The notes under the pieces are model-generated. The model was not told where the DNA came from. It saw only the letters and a program-made list of their open reading frames with translations, and did not search any database. The translations under genes were made by a program, and so were the position numbers. Shown piece after piece: positions 25,808 to 32,829 of a stretch of 49,581 bases of DNA. Origin of the DNA: Candidatus Poribacteria bacterium (GTDB taxonomy: Bacteria > Poribacteria > WGA-4E > WGA-3G); contig JAJDWI010000056.1 of the NCBI GenBank assembly GCA_022825665.1, forward strand, positions 1-49,581, written 5' to 3'. Position 1 is the first letter of the stretch. Every line of letters starts with the position of its first letter.

Positions 25808-26407
25808 TTATGCATTATCTTTCACGTACTTCCATCCATCAATTAGCACAGGAAATCCACGAATAAGACACATAGCAACAGCAATAATTGCAATGATGTA
25901 GGTGGTCGTTGAAAAGATATTTATGTATGTATCACTGAGTTGAGATTCCTTAAGGATAGGAATAGTTGCGAGGAAAAGGAAGGCAATAACTTTGGTGAAA
26001 CCGTATAAAGATCTGGAGAAACGGGAACTTGTTAACGCTCGTGTCCAAGGTATAGTCATCATTTCAAACGCTGTTTTGCCATCTGTGAGTGCCATGCTTC
26101 GAATCCCATCAATCAAAAACCCGCGCGTAACTACAGCGATAGGCATCCAGACCGGGATTAAGTCAATATAAGCGAAGTATATCCAGAATACGTTTTCAGC
26201 TATCCTATCAGCTGCAATATCAAAAACTGCACCGAAAGTAGAGGTTTCACCACGTTTTCGAGCAACGATACCATCTACTGTATCAAGGTTAAATATAATG
26301 AATATTGTTATGACACATGCAATATCTACATAGTAATGTTGACCATAGACCCCAAGGACAACGAAAGTTAAAAAAAGACGAAATAAAGTAATAGCGTTTG
26401 CCATCAT
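25808..26407 (-). CDS. CDP-alcohol phosphatidyltransferase
   Basis: A 199-residue integral membrane protein with about six hydrophobic segments. Starting near residue 42, D-T-V-D-G-I-V-A-R, then eight residues, G-A-V-F-D and I-A-A-D, exactly fit the family signature D-x2-DG-x2-AR-x8-G-x3-D-x3-D that binds the metal and CDP-alcohol. Enzymes of this kind make phosphatidylglycerol phosphate or related phospholipids. Which alcohol is used cannot be told, but length and features resemble PgsA. GGAG is eight bases before the first ATG. It is a single gene between repeat-rich intergenic regions. Confidence 0.9.
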   Translation of the reverse strand: MMANAITLFRLFLTFVVLGVYGQHYYVDIACVITIFIIFNLDTVDGIVARKRGETSTFGAVFDIAADRIAENVFWIYFAYIDLIPVWMPIAVVTRGFLIDGIRSMALTDGKTAFEMMTIPWTRALTSSRFSRSLYGFTKVIAFLFLATIPILKESQLSDTYINIFSTTTYIIAIIAVAMCLIRGFPVLIDGWKYVKDNA

Positions 26408-26950: not shown

Positions 26951-26982
26951 CTAAAGAATATATCTGTAATGAGGAGATGTCT

Positions 26983-28041
26983 ATGAGAACAGTAAAATTA
27001 GGGTTAATTGGTGCTGGTGGTATTTCACAGGCACATTGTGGTACACTTGAAAAGATAAATGGTGCTGAAATAATTGCGGCTGCAGATTTAGTTCCAGCAA
27101 ATTTAGAACGAGCAAAGGAAAAATGGGGAATAAAAAATACATTTACAGATTACAACGAAATGCTTAAAATGGATGAGATTGAAGCAGTGTATGTCTGTAC
27201 CCCTACAGGTGTGCATTCAGCACCAACCGTTGCTGCCCTCAACGCAGGTAAGCACGTTTTCTGTGAAAAGCCGATGGAAGCGACATTGGACGCAGCAACT
27301 GCTATGTGGCGCGCATCTGTAGAAAATGATAAAATACTGATGATCGGTCTTAAACTACGCTACTCCCCTCAAGTCATCAAAGCAAAAGAGATAGTTGACG
27401 CTGGAACACTTGGTGATATTTACTATGTTGAAACCGTAGCAGACAGACGACGTGGAAACCCCGGTGGCAGTTTCATACGCAAAGCAACTGCAGGATTAGG
27501 AGCATCCGCAGACATTGGTGTTTACGCATTGGATACAGCACTTTATCTTATGGGGCATCCGAAACCGGTTGCTGTCTCTGGCATTACTTCAAACTATCTT
27601 AGCCTTCACAATACTTGGAATCCTGCTCTTAAAGAGACGGAAGTAGAAGACTTTGGAGTCGGATGGGTTGTTTTTGAAGACGGTGCGCGCATGGTATTTA
27701 AAACTTGTTGGTGTATGAACATGGATTCTCTCGGAGGAACTATTTTCCTCGGTAAGAAAGCAGGACTGAGAATCGGTATCGGTGAAGTCCGCGGTCCACA
27801 AGAAGGCGTTCGCGTCTATGGTGATAAGGATGGACAGATTCATGACGAAACATACACAGAATTTGAATCAGTAAGTGTCTTTCATGAAGAGGATAGTGCA
27901 TTTATTGATGCAGTACGCGAAGGAAAGCCTTCACCTATTGACCCTTATGGTGTTCTACTAACAAACGTCATCATTCAGGGAGTTATTGATTCTTCAGAGG
28001 CAGGTGGACGAGAAGTTGAGGTTACGGTGCCAACGATGTAA
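26983..28041 (+). CDS. Gfo/Idh/MocA-family oxidoreductase
   Basis: A 352-residue NAD(P)-dependent oxidoreductase. LGLIGAGGISQAHCGTLEK is the Rossmann loop and VFCEKPMEATLD contains the typical EKP. GASADIGVYALDTALYLMG matches the D-x-G-x-Y/H-x-x-D-x-x region of the active site. The reaction is redox at a sugar or sugar-derivative hydroxyl. ATG at 26977 is part of the ribosome binding site, so ATG at 26983 (GGAG, six bases) is preferred. It stands alone, with its own promoter. It is a different subgroup from the protein at 22998. Confidence 0.92.
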   Translation: MRTVKLGLIGAGGISQAHCGTLEKINGAEIIAAADLVPANLERAKEKWGIKNTFTDYNEMLKMDEIEAVYVCTPTGVHSAPTVAALNAGKHVFCEKPMEATLDAATAMWRASVENDKILMIGLKLRYSPQVIKAKEIVDAGTLGDIYYVETVADRRRGNPGGSFIRKATAGLGASADIGVYALDTALYLMGHPKPVAVSGITSNYLSLHNTWNPALKETEVEDFGVGWVVFEDGARMVFKTCWCMNMDSLGGTIFLGKKAGLRIGIGEVRGPQEGVRVYGDKDGQIHDETYTEFESVSVFHEEDSAFIDAVREGKPSPIDPYGVLLTNVIIQGVIDSSEAGGREVEVTVPTM

Positions 28042-28190: not shown

Positions 28191-29243
28191 ATGAACTTAA
28201 TTGAAATTGCTGGGAAAAAATTAAAATTAGGTTCCAGAATGGCTCGGATGTTCGCGCTCTTCTTGGATGGCATGATTACATTTTGGACAGCTGTGATTGT
28301 GACTTCAATCTTTGGTGCTATGTTTCGTAATGCATTTGGAAGCGGATGGATACAGTTCATGCTGTATATGGGAACATGGAGTGCGGGTATGTTGTTTATG
28401 GATGGATTCAAGAACGGACAAGGACTTGGCAAACGTCTTTTATCTTTACAAGTTATCCGTATGAAAGATGGAAAGCCGTGTACCTTTAAAGACTCATTCA
28501 TTCGGCGTTTAACCTGCATATTTCAACCCTTTGATATGCTCTTTTCACTTGGCGACAAAAAGCAACGGATGGGAGATAAATTTGCGGAAACAGTTGTTGT
28601 GAAATATGAACCATATATTGAAAATGTTAATGTCGAAACAGAAGACCCAGTAAAGGTATTAGACAACGCAATTGACGAGATAACGAACAGGTTGGTGGAG
28701 GCAAGAGAAAAAGTAGATGCTTCTATTGGAATCGAAAAGCAGTTCCAGAACGCTTATGAAGGGGCACTTATACAGGCGGAAAGGTGTGAAGAACGCGCAA
28801 CTATAGCAATTAAGGCAGGACGCGAAGATTTAGCGAGAGAAGATATAGCACAACGAAATGAATATAAACAACTCGCAAGTCGTTATAAAACACAGTGGGA
28901 AGAACAAAAACAAATCGTAGCGGATCTTACAAACCTACTGGACACACTAAAAATGAAGACTGAAGAAGCAGAAAGAAAAAGAGATGTTCTCATTGCACAA
29001 CACAGAAATGTTGATGCACAAAAACATCTACAACAGACTTTGACAGAGGTTCAAGATGGCGCGGCTTTTGAAATACTCAATCAAATGGAACAAAATGTGA
29101 GTGAAGCCGCCACATTAGCAAAAGCAGCATCTGATGTTGATAGCGAACTTTCTGATACCAAGTTAAACCGTGAATTTGCTGACTATGCTGAAGAAGCATC
29201 TATTGACAACGACTTAGCAGAACTAAAAGCAAAATTACAGTAA
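28191..29243 (+). CDS. RDD membrane domain fused to PspA/Vipp1 (ESCRT-III-like) domain
   Basis: A 350-residue fusion. Residues 1-140 are an RDD domain: GSRMARMFALFLDGMI, two hydrophobic stretches (about 24-45 and 52-72), GQGLGKRLLSLQVIRMKDG and QRMGDKFAETVVV. Residues 151-350 match PspA/Vipp1 from its EDPxK site onward: EDPVKVLDNAIDEITNRLVE, CEERATIAIKAGREDLARE, then a long coiled coil and an end DLAELKAKLQ like the PspA C-terminus. PspA normally starts with an amphipathic membrane-binding helix; here the RDD domain takes its place. AAGGA precedes the ATG. PspA proteins remodel and repair membranes, so a membrane-anchored ESCRT-III-like scaffold is inferred. A paralogue follows 128 bases later. 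Confidence 0.85.
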   Translation: MNLIEIAGKKLKLGSRMARMFALFLDGMITFWTAVIVTSIFGAMFRNAFGSGWIQFMLYMGTWSAGMLFMDGFKNGQGLGKRLLSLQVIRMKDGKPCTFKDSFIRRLTCIFQPFDMLFSLGDKKQRMGDKFAETVVVKYEPYIENVNVETEDPVKVLDNAIDEITNRLVEAREKVDASIGIEKQFQNAYEGALIQAERCEERATIAIKAGREDLAREDIAQRNEYKQLASRYKTQWEEQKQIVADLTNLLDTLKMKTEEAERKRDVLIAQHRNVDAQKHLQQTLTEVQDGAAFEILNQMEQNVSEAATLAKAASDVDSELSDTKLNREFADYAEEASIDNDLAELKAKLQ

Positions 29244-29371
29244 CGCTGACCTTGTCCATTACTCTGGTTTTTATATTTCACATAATAGTGTTGTTAGTTC
29301 CATTTCTACTTACATAAACCCAACAATCAAATTTATCACCCTTTTAATCTGTACATTTCAGAGTTACATTC

Positions 29372-30478
29372 ATGTCAATAGTTAGAATTGCTGGAGAGAA
29401 ATTCAAATTAGCATCTCGTTGGGCAAGGTTAGGTGCGTTCTTGCTGGACATCGGTTTCTTGGTGTTCTGTCAAGGTGTGTTATGGCTAATAGGACTATTA
29501 CAATCTGTAATGTTCACTGATTTTGACGATTATATGTATTTCGGTGATGACCCCGCAGTAGTTACGTTCTTTGTCCTTAGCATTATACTGTGGAATTACG
29601 GTTATTTTCTTATGGATGGACGTGCTGATGGAGGAGGATTCGGAAAGAGATTACTATCTCTTAAAATAGTTCGTTTGAAGGATGGAGAACAAGCAAACTA
29701 TAAAGATTCGTTTGTTCGTCGTTTTTCCGCCATATTTCAACCTATTGACTGGCTTTTCGCTTTAGGTAAAGGCAGACAGCGAATGGGTGATAAACTTGCC
29801 AAAACTGTGGTGGTTAAATTAGACACGCCACAAGTTGAAATTGTAACCGAAGAAGAAGAAACGGACGATAAAGAAACAGATCTCGAAAAAGTATTAGAGG
29901 ATGTAATTCTTGAAATTACAAACCGTTTCTCAGAAGCAAAGCAGAAGGTTGACGCATCAATTGGAATAGAGAAACAATTTCAGAATGCACACGACGGGGC
30001 TATAGCACAAGCAGAAAAATGTGAAGAACGTGCCATCATTTCACTTAAGGCAGGACGTGAAGATTTGGCAAAGGAAGATCTCGCACAACGAAATGAATAT
30101 AGACTAATTGCAAACCGATATAAAGAACAGTGGGAAGAACAGAAAAGGACAGTCGAACACCTAACTACACTTCTTGACACACTCCAGCAAAAAACACAGC
30201 AGACACAGCGAGAAAGGGATGTTGTAATCGCACAACACAGAAATGTTGATGCACAAGAACATTTGCAACAAACATTGTCAGAACTGCAAGACAATAAGGC
30301 TTTTGAGATGCTCAAGAAAATGGGGCAGAACGTTACTGAAGCTGCAGCACTCGCAAAAGCTGCATCAGAAGTAGATGTCGAATTCCAGGATGTAGAACTA
30401 AATCGTGAATTTGCAAATTACGCAGAGGATGAAGCAATTAACAAAGACCTTGCCGAATTAAAGGAGACTCTAAAATAG
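29372..30478 (+). CDS. RDD-PspA fusion, tandem paralogue
   Basis: A 368-residue paralogue of the upstream gene with the same order of domains. The RDD part (1-150) has ASRWARLGAFLLDIGFLVF, a longer middle loop with many acidic residues (about 49-61), GGFGKRLLSLKIVRLKDG and QRMGDKLAKTVVV. After an acidic linker (EEEETDDKETD), residues about 170-368 form the PspA body: LEKVLEDVILEITNRF, CEERAIISLKAGREDLAKE and DLAELKETLK. The two proteins agree more in the PspA half than in the RDD half, suggesting they copolymerise while the membrane parts differ. No clear ribosome binding site is seen. It may share a transcript with the first copy. Confidence 0.85.
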   Translation: MSIVRIAGEKFKLASRWARLGAFLLDIGFLVFCQGVLWLIGLLQSVMFTDFDDYMYFGDDPAVVTFFVLSIILWNYGYFLMDGRADGGGFGKRLLSLKIVRLKDGEQANYKDSFVRRFSAIFQPIDWLFALGKGRQRMGDKLAKTVVVKLDTPQVEIVTEEEETDDKETDLEKVLEDVILEITNRFSEAKQKVDASIGIEKQFQNAHDGAIAQAEKCEERAIISLKAGREDLAKEDLAQRNEYRLIANRYKEQWEEQKRTVEHLTTLLDTLQQKTQQTQRERDVVIAQHRNVDAQEHLQQTLSELQDNKAFEMLKKMGQNVTEAAALAKAASEVDVEFQDVELNREFANYAEDEAINKDLAELKETLK

Positions 30479-30514: not shown

Positions 30515-31987
30515 ATGGACAATCAAAAACTACCCAATATTGTTTTTATTATGGCAGACGATATGGGTTATGGTGACGTTGGCTGCTATAACCCAGATTC
30601 AAAAATTCCTACCCCCAATATGGATCAACTTGCCCAAGAAGGTATCCGCTTCACAGACGCACATTCACCCTCCGCTGTTTGCACACCAACACGATATGGT
30701 GTCTTAACAGGTAGATATTGCTGGAGAAGTCGCCTCAAACGGGGTGTGCTTTACGGATATGAACCTGCTCTAATAGAACCTGACCGTTTGACAGTACCAA
30801 GTCTGTTAAAAGAATCAGGATACAACACTGCCTGTATTGGCAAGTGGCATTTAGGTATTGGGTTTTCAACAAAACCGGGATACGATTACGATTTTGATGC
30901 ACCACTACCATGGGGAAATGCTAAACGCGAGTTAGAAGAAAATATAGATTTTCATGCACCATTGACAGGTGGTCCAACTGACATCGGTTTTGATTATTTC
31001 TACGGTACCTCTGGTTGTCCAACGTGCCAACCACCTTATGGATTTATAGAGAATGAATCTTTTGTTGAAATACCGAGTGAATACCGTGGAGAACCAGATT
31101 TTACGGGTCGTCCTGGTATGACGGCACCAAGTTGGCACCACAAAGACGCAGACCCAATGATTGCACAGAAAGCAGTTGAGTACATTGAGACACAAGCCGA
31201 ATCCGATGATCCATTTTTCTTGTATATGACACCATCAGCACCGCATGAACCTTGTGTTGAGGAGGTAGTACCAGAATTCGCACGCGGACAAAGTGACGCA
31301 GGACCACGAGGTGATTTGGTTTGGTTAGTAGACTGGATGGTTGGCGAAGTAATGCAGGCTTTAGATCGCACAGGAAAAACTGACGATACGCTGATCTTCG
31401 TCACAAGTGATAACGGCGCGCTACCCGGAGATCGAATTAAAGGTGGTAAAGGTCCAATGCCATATAACCTTTATGACCATAAATCCTGTGGGGATTGGCG
31501 CGGATATAAAGCACACATCTGGGAAGGTGGACACCGAGAACCACTTATAGCAAGATGGAACGGTGTAATTGAACCGAATACTGAAAATGATGCACTGGTC
31601 TGTCTAACAGATCTCATGGAAACATGTGCAGCGATAGTTGAAACAGATGTGCCTGATGATGCTGGACAAGACAGCTGTAACATCTTACCTGCACTCTTAG
31701 GACAAGAAACCATACAACCACTACGCGAAGCAATCGTACATCATTCCAGTAATGGTGTCTTTTCTATACGACACAACGAGTGGAAACTGGTCATCGGAAC
31801 AGAAGGATCGGGAGGGTGGCCCCCACCCAGTGACGGAGGTCCCAAACCAGATTCACCCGGACAGTTATACAATATATACGATGATCCGTATGAAACTGAT
31901 AATCAATGGTCAAATCGTCCGGAGATAGTCCAAAGGTTAACGAATTTATTAGAAAAGTTTGAACAAGAAGGACACAGCAGAATATGA
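30515..31987 (+). CDS. Sulfatase, type I
   Basis: A 490-residue formylglycine-type sulfatase. FIMADDMGYGDVGCY (about 11-25) has the metal-binding Asp pair, CTPTR (Cys56) is the maturation site, CIGKWHLGIG carries the active-site Lys and His, and VTSDNGALPGD holds the C-terminal metal pair. It resembles arylsulfatase A-like S1 members that act on sulfated sugars. A TTG at 30503 also opens the frame, but ATG at 30515 fits the family N-terminus. No signal peptide. Its TGA overlaps the ATG of the PhyH gene (ATGA), so both are made from one message. Substrate unknown. Confidence 0.93.
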   Translation: MDNQKLPNIVFIMADDMGYGDVGCYNPDSKIPTPNMDQLAQEGIRFTDAHSPSAVCTPTRYGVLTGRYCWRSRLKRGVLYGYEPALIEPDRLTVPSLLKESGYNTACIGKWHLGIGFSTKPGYDYDFDAPLPWGNAKRELEENIDFHAPLTGGPTDIGFDYFYGTSGCPTCQPPYGFIENESFVEIPSEYRGEPDFTGRPGMTAPSWHHKDADPMIAQKAVEYIETQAESDDPFFLYMTPSAPHEPCVEEVVPEFARGQSDAGPRGDLVWLVDWMVGEVMQALDRTGKTDDTLIFVTSDNGALPGDRIKGGKGPMPYNLYDHKSCGDWRGYKAHIWEGGHREPLIARWNGVIEPNTENDALVCLTDLMETCAAIVETDVPDDAGQDSCNILPALLGQETIQPLREAIVHHSSNGVFSIRHNEWKLVIGTEGSGGWPPPSDGGPKPDSPGQLYNIYDDPYETDNQWSNRPEIVQRLTNLLEKFEQEGHSRI

Positions 31988-32829
31988 GGAATTCTATGGA
32001 AACAGCTAAAATTGATTCACTCTTCCGCTTAGCAGGTCCATCAAAGAAAGATATCGATTCATTCCATAACGATGGATACATCGCATATCCAGATATCTTC
32101 ACAGACGATGGCAGAGAAGGTTTAATTGAGGAAATAACACAACAATTTGAACCAACCCATCAATACATTGAATCGCTGAAAAACGGTGACAAACCAGATC
32201 GTTCATATTTCATTCGTCCTTGGAACGAACGACGTGAGTATAGCGACAGACTTATCGACGATCCTTTTATTACCACACTGATTCGTGCAACCATTGGTAA
32301 CGATTATCACTTCTGCCACTCCGCACTAAACATCGCACCTCGCGGCATTGGTCCAGTAGGGTTTCATCAAGACCACCATCATTGGAAGCATGAAAACCCT
32401 ATCAATCTTGCGGAACGTGACAACTACTACATCCAAATACTTTACTATCCTAACGGCTTCAGGCGCGGTGATCGTAATCTCAAAGTTATACCGGGTAGCC
32501 ACAAGATAGCACCAACAAATGAGGCAACCCCAGAACGGATGCTTGCAGGTGAATACGACAAAGAAGCCGGACAACCATTACAAGAAAAGCGGCTTGATTT
32601 ACCACCAGGAAGTATGGTTTATATTGATGCCCGCATCTTCCACGCGGTGGAGGCAAAACCTGAGGATTCACCACAGCTATACCGTATCTTCGTTATAGAC
32701 ATCTTCAAAGAAGCCGGACCACCCCATCGTTATACACAACATATCCCATCGGAATGGATAGAACGAGCAACACCACATCGCAAAAAGTTATTTGATCGTG
32801 AAGGATACACAGAAGGTTGTTGGAACTAA
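31984..32829 (+). CDS. Phytanoyl-CoA dioxygenase (PhyH) family protein
   Basis: A 281-residue Fe(II)/2-oxoglutarate dioxygenase. FHQD gives His128 and Asp130, and ARIFHAVEAK gives His220, forming the 2-His-1-carboxylate iron site; RIF...DIF carries the Arg region that binds 2-oxoglutarate. GDRNLKVIPGSH is the usual strand before. The reaction is a hydroxylation, but the substrate is unknown. ATG at 31984 overlaps the sulfatase stop; ATG at 31996 has GAGGAA five bases ahead and is an equally good start. Coupling with a sulfatase suggests both work on one sulfated or methylated sugar or lipid; this is inference. Confidence 0.9.
   Translation: MRNSMETAKIDSLFRLAGPSKKDIDSFHNDGYIAYPDIFTDDGREGLIEEITQQFEPTHQYIESLKNGDKPDRSYFIRPWNERREYSDRLIDDPFITTLIRATIGNDYHFCHSALNIAPRGIGPVGFHQDHHHWKHENPINLAERDNYYIQILYYPNGFRRGDRNLKVIPGSHKIAPTNEATPERMLAGEYDKEAGQPLQEKRLDLPPGSMVYIDARIFHAVEAKPEDSPQLYRIFVIDIFKEAGPPHRYTQHIPSEWIERATPHRKKLFDREGYTEGCWN

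Follow-up and report, generated by a model that had tools for sequence, protein, structure and literature searches.

The window analysed here, 49,581 nucleotides from a metagenome-assembled genome (MAG) of Candidatus Poribacteria, carries two tandem genes, designated fusion A (28191..29243, + strand, 350 aa) and fusion B (29372..30478, + strand, 368 aa), in which an RDD membrane domain is joined to a PspA/IM30 body missing helix alpha0 alone. The best explanation for these proteins, and in our judgement a rather probable one, is an integral-membrane ESCRT-III-like PspA scaffold that would be held in place by its RDD domain rather than by lipid binding. The coordinates, frames and lengths of both genes agree with those of the first-pass annotation. 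Chance or an assembly error as the source of the fusion is ruled out, since the gene is found intact in dozens of genomes, some of them assembled as a single contig, and is under purifying selection.

Domain composition and predicted fold

The RDD domain of A (28233..28586, + strand) matches PF06271 over residues 15-132 (E 9.2e-12, 45.9 bits), and that of B (29411..29803, + strand) over residues 14-144 (E 3.8e-13, 50.3 bits), against a curated Pfam cut-off of 24.1 bits. It is followed by the PspA/IM30 body, composed of helices alpha1-alpha5 (28635..29234 in A and 29864..30466 in B, both + strand), which matches PF04012 over residues 149-348 of A (E 2.3e-28, 99.7 bits; profile positions 20-217 of 220) and 165-365 of B (E 2.3e-20, 73.6 bits; positions 18-216 of 220), with a cut-off of 33.9 bits. 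The C-terminal halves of both proteins can also be aligned by sequence to solved Vipp1 and PspA chains, from the EDP motif onward (chain residues about 19-217). The PspA part of the fusions therefore extends from the EDP position to the end of alpha5. Scores against TIGR02977, the NCBIfam equivalog for phage shock protein A proper, are 66.6 (A) and 46.2 bits (B), below its curated cut-off of 242.95. The first-pass annotation had proposed an RDD domain followed by a full PspA body from the EDP position on, with alpha0 exchanged for the membrane domain, and had hung this reading on a PspA/IM30 profile match; that match is highly significant in both proteins, and its start at profile positions 18-20 is preceded by the RDD domain and an acidic linker.

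The place of alpha0 in the fusions is filled by the RDD domain together with this linker of 13-28 aa, which is mostly acidic; in A (residues 139-152; 28605..28646, + strand) it is short, lacks an amphipathic helix and is modelled with a pLDDT below 50 at residues 141-150. AF2 models and hydropathy predict two transmembrane (TM) helices in each protein (residues 16-44 and 52-68 of A, 16-48 and 61-80 of B), and a third hydrophobic stretch is short. The RDD part, initially described as multi-pass, is thus a membrane domain with just two predicted TM helices.

The AF2 models of A and B share a common order of elements: (i) a short beta hairpin, (ii) two long membrane helices, (iii) small cytosolic RDD elements, and (iv) helices alpha1, alpha2-3, alpha4 and alpha5. 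Their confidence is moderate (mean pLDDT 68.5 and 62.4, pTM 0.34 and 0.33 for A and B, respectively), so the relative placement of the domains is not readable from them, and pLDDT is low in alpha4-alpha5. The ESCRT-III helix order (alpha1/alpha2-3 hairpin, alpha4, alpha5) is present in both, at moderate confidence for alpha4-alpha5. In a Foldseek search with the A model, the 17 best matches were Vipp1 and PspA (E down to 2.2e-7); eukaryotic and Asgard ESCRT-III filaments came next, with weak E-values. A plain coiled coil, which the annotation had named as the outcome that would speak against it, was not predicted.

Distribution, origin and genomic setting

The sequences nearest to A are from Candidatus Poribacteria MAGs, including a 96% identical copy in locus L004. 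A profile built from 47 fusions was run against 85 genomes from this phylum, 59 of the family to which the window belongs (f1) and 26 of families f2-f10. The fusion was found in 56 of the 59 f1 genomes, including the single-contig assemblies G046, G080, G082, G083 and G084; the three genomes without it (G031, G037 and G059) are drafts. Among the matches listed, none of the 26 genomes of f2-f10 contained it; those matches were to separate genes only, with PspA matches at profile positions 127-361. The fusion was likewise absent from an outgroup sample of 297 genomes (the phylum of L030, a Flavobacteriales locus), where RDD and PspA matches lie in separate genes throughout, a search centred on L029 yielding no matches beyond these, and the plasmids searched gave one Paenibacillus PspA match and no RDD. 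Copy number per locus is 1-4, and split or frameshifted copies occur in G029, G053, G060, G061 and G062. The break in the G029 copy (L026/L096, C1:5438009-5439060) lies within the linker and splits the RDD and PspA parts into two frames.

A phylogeny of 90 PspA domains, with a bootstrap that was not yet fully stable, groups the fusions in a single clade (support 100/100). This clade is nested among canonical PspAs of the same (sister) order (94/96), and the nearest of these, from f3, joins it at 90/72. By this tree the fusion arose once. Stand-alone PspAs of the sister families carry an ordinary alpha0, e.g., MGFFNRVSTIFKSNVNAALDQAEDPEKML. The closest separate RDD protein seen (155 aa; L114 of the sister genome G023) shares 40% identity with A over residues 1-139, and the likeness includes the N-terminal hairpin. 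Since f3 has both an alpha0-bearing PspA and a separate RDD protein, both parent types survive there as separate, unlinked genes. The possibility that RDD and PspA genes were ancestrally linked was considered and rejected: no RDD gene adjoins canonical pspA in the sister loci read, so the fusion joined unlinked genes.

Throughout f1, the fusion array lies between a Gfo/Idh oxidoreductase gene and a sulfatase gene, usually followed by a PhyH gene and another sulfatase gene, all on one strand. The window follows this pattern, with conserved neighbours encoding a GFO/IDH/MocA oxidoreductase (26977..28041, + strand) upstream of A, a sulfatase (30515..31987, + strand) starting 36 bases after B, and a phytanoyl-CoA dioxygenase family protein (31984..32829, + strand). 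The setting is metabolic, with no stress gene adjoining the fusions, and the oxidoreductase and sulfatase gene families recurred repeatedly among the loci read. Gfo/Idh was rejected as a conserved operon partner; in sister families a Gfo/Idh gene likewise adjoins pspA, on its downstream side, but it is not orthologous to the f1 oxidoreductase (23-29% identity), and the likeness of these loci is therefore probably a coincidence. A scan for promoters and terminators gave results at about chance level. Two further genes were observed near the fusions: (i) a gene for a 101-aa protein without a Pfam or NCBIfam match, beside or between the fusion copies (L016, 9298-9603, + strand, and 21 other f1 loci), and (ii) a CDP-alcohol phosphatidyltransferase gene (window 25808-26407, - strand), divergently upstream of the oxidoreductase gene, an arrangement shown by five of the f1 loci read.

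Lipid-binding surfaces, paralogues and possible function

Two elements of the PspA family are known to bind lipids. PspA without alpha0 still forms rods, with loss of membrane tubulation (PMC12358876), and IM30 binds membranes through its basic alpha1-3 hairpin (pI 9.43; PMC12636044). In the fusions this hairpin has a mean net charge of -5.5 (range -10 to -1; pI 5.4; n=44), against +4.6 (range +3 to +7; pI 9.4; n=19) in canonical sister PspAs; the sign is reversed and the ranges do not overlap. Conserved basic residues at A positions 184, 187, 238, 247, 251, 255, 273, 275 and 278 are lost or reversed in the fusions. As controls, SmpB and the 128-aa protein of the flotillin locus show no such charge shift between f1 and its sisters, and the SPFH protein is somewhat more acidic in f1. 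The reversal is a single inherited change common to all copies, not many independent ones. Judged from sequence, both lipid-binding elements known in the family are gone from the fusions, alpha0 being absent and the hairpin acidic.

Canonical soluble PspA is also missing from the f1 genomes searched. Genomes of the sister families encode up to four strong canonical PspAs (143-204 bits), whereas among the matches listed no stand-alone PspA of f1 exceeds 66 bits. In the sister locus L101, genes occur in the order PspA, 128-aa protein, NfeD-like protein, SPFH (flotillin) protein, 203-aa protein and PspA. The five f1 flotillin loci read (G000, G028, G046, G080 and G082) all retain the SPFH, NfeD-like and 128-aa genes in the same order, and four of them (all except G028) the 203-aa gene; in all five, both flanking PspA genes are absent with no detectable remnant. 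PspC was found in none of 10 f1 genomes. We infer that in f1 the anchored forms took on the role formerly played by recruited soluble PspA; replacement is favoured over addition by the lack of canonical PspA together with the lost positive charge of the hairpin.

Apart from the fusions, the only PspA-like protein seen in f1 is divergent, scoring 31 bits in the window's own genome and at most 66 bits in the family among the matches listed, with a mean hairpin charge of +1.5. It is encoded in L120 (4295-5014, - strand; C153 of the window's own genome, also L003 and relatives), has an alpha0-like start, adjoins ABC transporter genes and is conserved in f1. The NfeD-like protein encoded in the flotillin locus (L115, 6935-7723, - strand; L117, 5787-6617, + strand) contains long acidic repeats of the DVDADVD type, which are longer in f1 than in L101.

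A and B share 56% identity overall. As the first-pass annotation had noted, the copies differ most in the membrane part and linker (TM1 37%, outside loop 25%, TM2 28%, linker 43%) and least in the PspA coils (alpha1-3 70%, alpha4-5 63%); identity in the cytosolic RDD elements is 62%. The B-type sequences of the window's genus and of genus g4 together make up a supported clade (100/98), so the split between the A and B types predates the separation of these genera, and B is, by its phylogenetic placement, an old and conserved paralogue. Such a long-lived separate orthologue makes two distinct roles for A and B likely. In g4 arrays the first copy (L011, 6741-7937, and others) carries an extended hydrophobic insert separating TM1 from TM2; paralogues thus differ in the membrane part.

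In the scaffold reading, the RDD domain would anchor the subunits in the cytoplasmic membrane, their N- and C-termini both on the inner side, and the PspA bodies would self-assemble at the cytosolic face. Anchoring would stand in for both alpha0 and the basic hairpin, giving a standing membrane scaffold rather than a recruited, tube-forming protein. A-type and B-type subunits probably play different roles; they may co-assemble, as the first-pass annotation suggested, and may protect the membrane. Weighing against this reading are the moderate confidence of the models, the metabolic gene setting without an adjoining stress gene, and a charge reversal that counts as one event, with the SPFH proteins of the family shifted somewhat in the same direction. 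More tentatively, they could build a two-component, permanently membrane-embedded ESCRT-III-like lattice organising or stabilising the cytoplasmic membrane without alpha0 or electrostatic lipid binding, a specific form to which we give less than an even chance.

Without exception, the 47 fusions carry the RDD signature residues R19, D26 and D71, for which a pure anchor has no obvious use and which suggest that RDD may do more than anchor. They raise the alternative, which we regard as unlikely, that RDD is the working part (a cation/proton antiporter or an envelope sensor) and that the PspA body clusters it or relays its state to the cytosol. Consistent with this, an RDD protein of Halobacillus mediates Na+(Li+,K+)/H+ antiport dependent on conserved Arg/Asp residues (PMC5996927), and the C-terminal end of the Bacillus RDD protein SppI controls the protease SppA (PMC7568657). 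However, antiport is reported for a single RDD protein, and in the fusions conservation is lowest in the TM helices and highest in the PspA body; dN/dS is 0.12-0.18 in RDD and 0.01-0.09 in PspA, i.e., purifying selection acts on both halves and more strongly on the latter.

A still less probable possibility is that the anchor blocks polymerisation of PspA, which would make the fusion a small membrane signalling or docking protein and not an ESCRT-III-like scaffold. Many charged hairpin positions do differ from canonical PspA, and the low pLDDT of alpha4-alpha5 leaves the assembly helices uncertain, but in canonical and fused PspAs alike conservation reaches at least 90% at 27 positions, including F329, L342, L345 and K346 at the alpha5 end, and tandem copies with a conserved second type are more readily explained if the protein assembles. 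That the fusion has little function and is a lineage-specific product maintained by tandem-duplication turnover, as the variable copy number and the several broken copies might suggest, is highly improbable: in each half dN/dS is far below 1, the fusion is present in 56 of 59 f1 genomes, and the B orthologue is retained in more than one genus.

The use that PspA/Vipp1 and ESCRT-III proteins make of alpha0 and of the alpha1-3 hairpin at the membrane is under active study. In f1, evolution dropped both alpha0 and the basic hairpin for a membrane domain, and the gene was kept and duplicated family-wide. This offers a natural test of how these proteins work when the parts normally touching lipids are removed; the fusion, its soluble relatives in the sister families and the separate RDD protein form a comparison set for what lipid binding and a membrane-held scaffold each require.

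Relation to known systems

No paper treating RDD together with PspA, and nothing on PspA in Poribacteria, was found in the main texts of the freely accessible papers searched. Neither of two comparative PspA surveys (PMC11237479, PMC9239133) nor an ESCRT survey mentions RDD. A link to cell compartments was considered and dropped; poribacterial polar bodies did not appear membrane bound, and PspA is unmentioned in their description (PMC5087111). The view of the first-pass annotation that no such system has been described agrees with this literature, with the qualification that fusing PspA to a membrane domain has a precedent in the PspC-PspA proteins mentioned for Firmicutes (PMC9239133). These likewise combine both domains in one polypeptide, but their membrane domain is PspC and not RDD.

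Described RDD proteins (PF06271), such as SppI and that of Halobacillus, share with the fusions the RDD domain, the R/D/D residues and two to three TM segments, but those described are small membrane proteins that lack the PspA body. In Bacillus subtilis, PspA reaches the membrane through YdjGHI (PMC8581546), i.e., integral partners place it there, and the flotillin/NfeD-PspA locus of the sister families is of this general type; in the f1 fusion, unlike these, the membrane part belongs to the same polypeptide, and PspA genes are no longer part of the f1 flotillin locus. The closest relatives remain PspA/Vipp1 (IM30, PF04012), which the fusions resemble in the sequence of alpha1-alpha5, the predicted helix order, the EDP start and the alpha5 end, and from which they differ in lacking alpha0, in the attached two-TM RDD domain, in a hairpin that is acidic and not basic, and in being predicted integral rather than peripheral membrane proteins.
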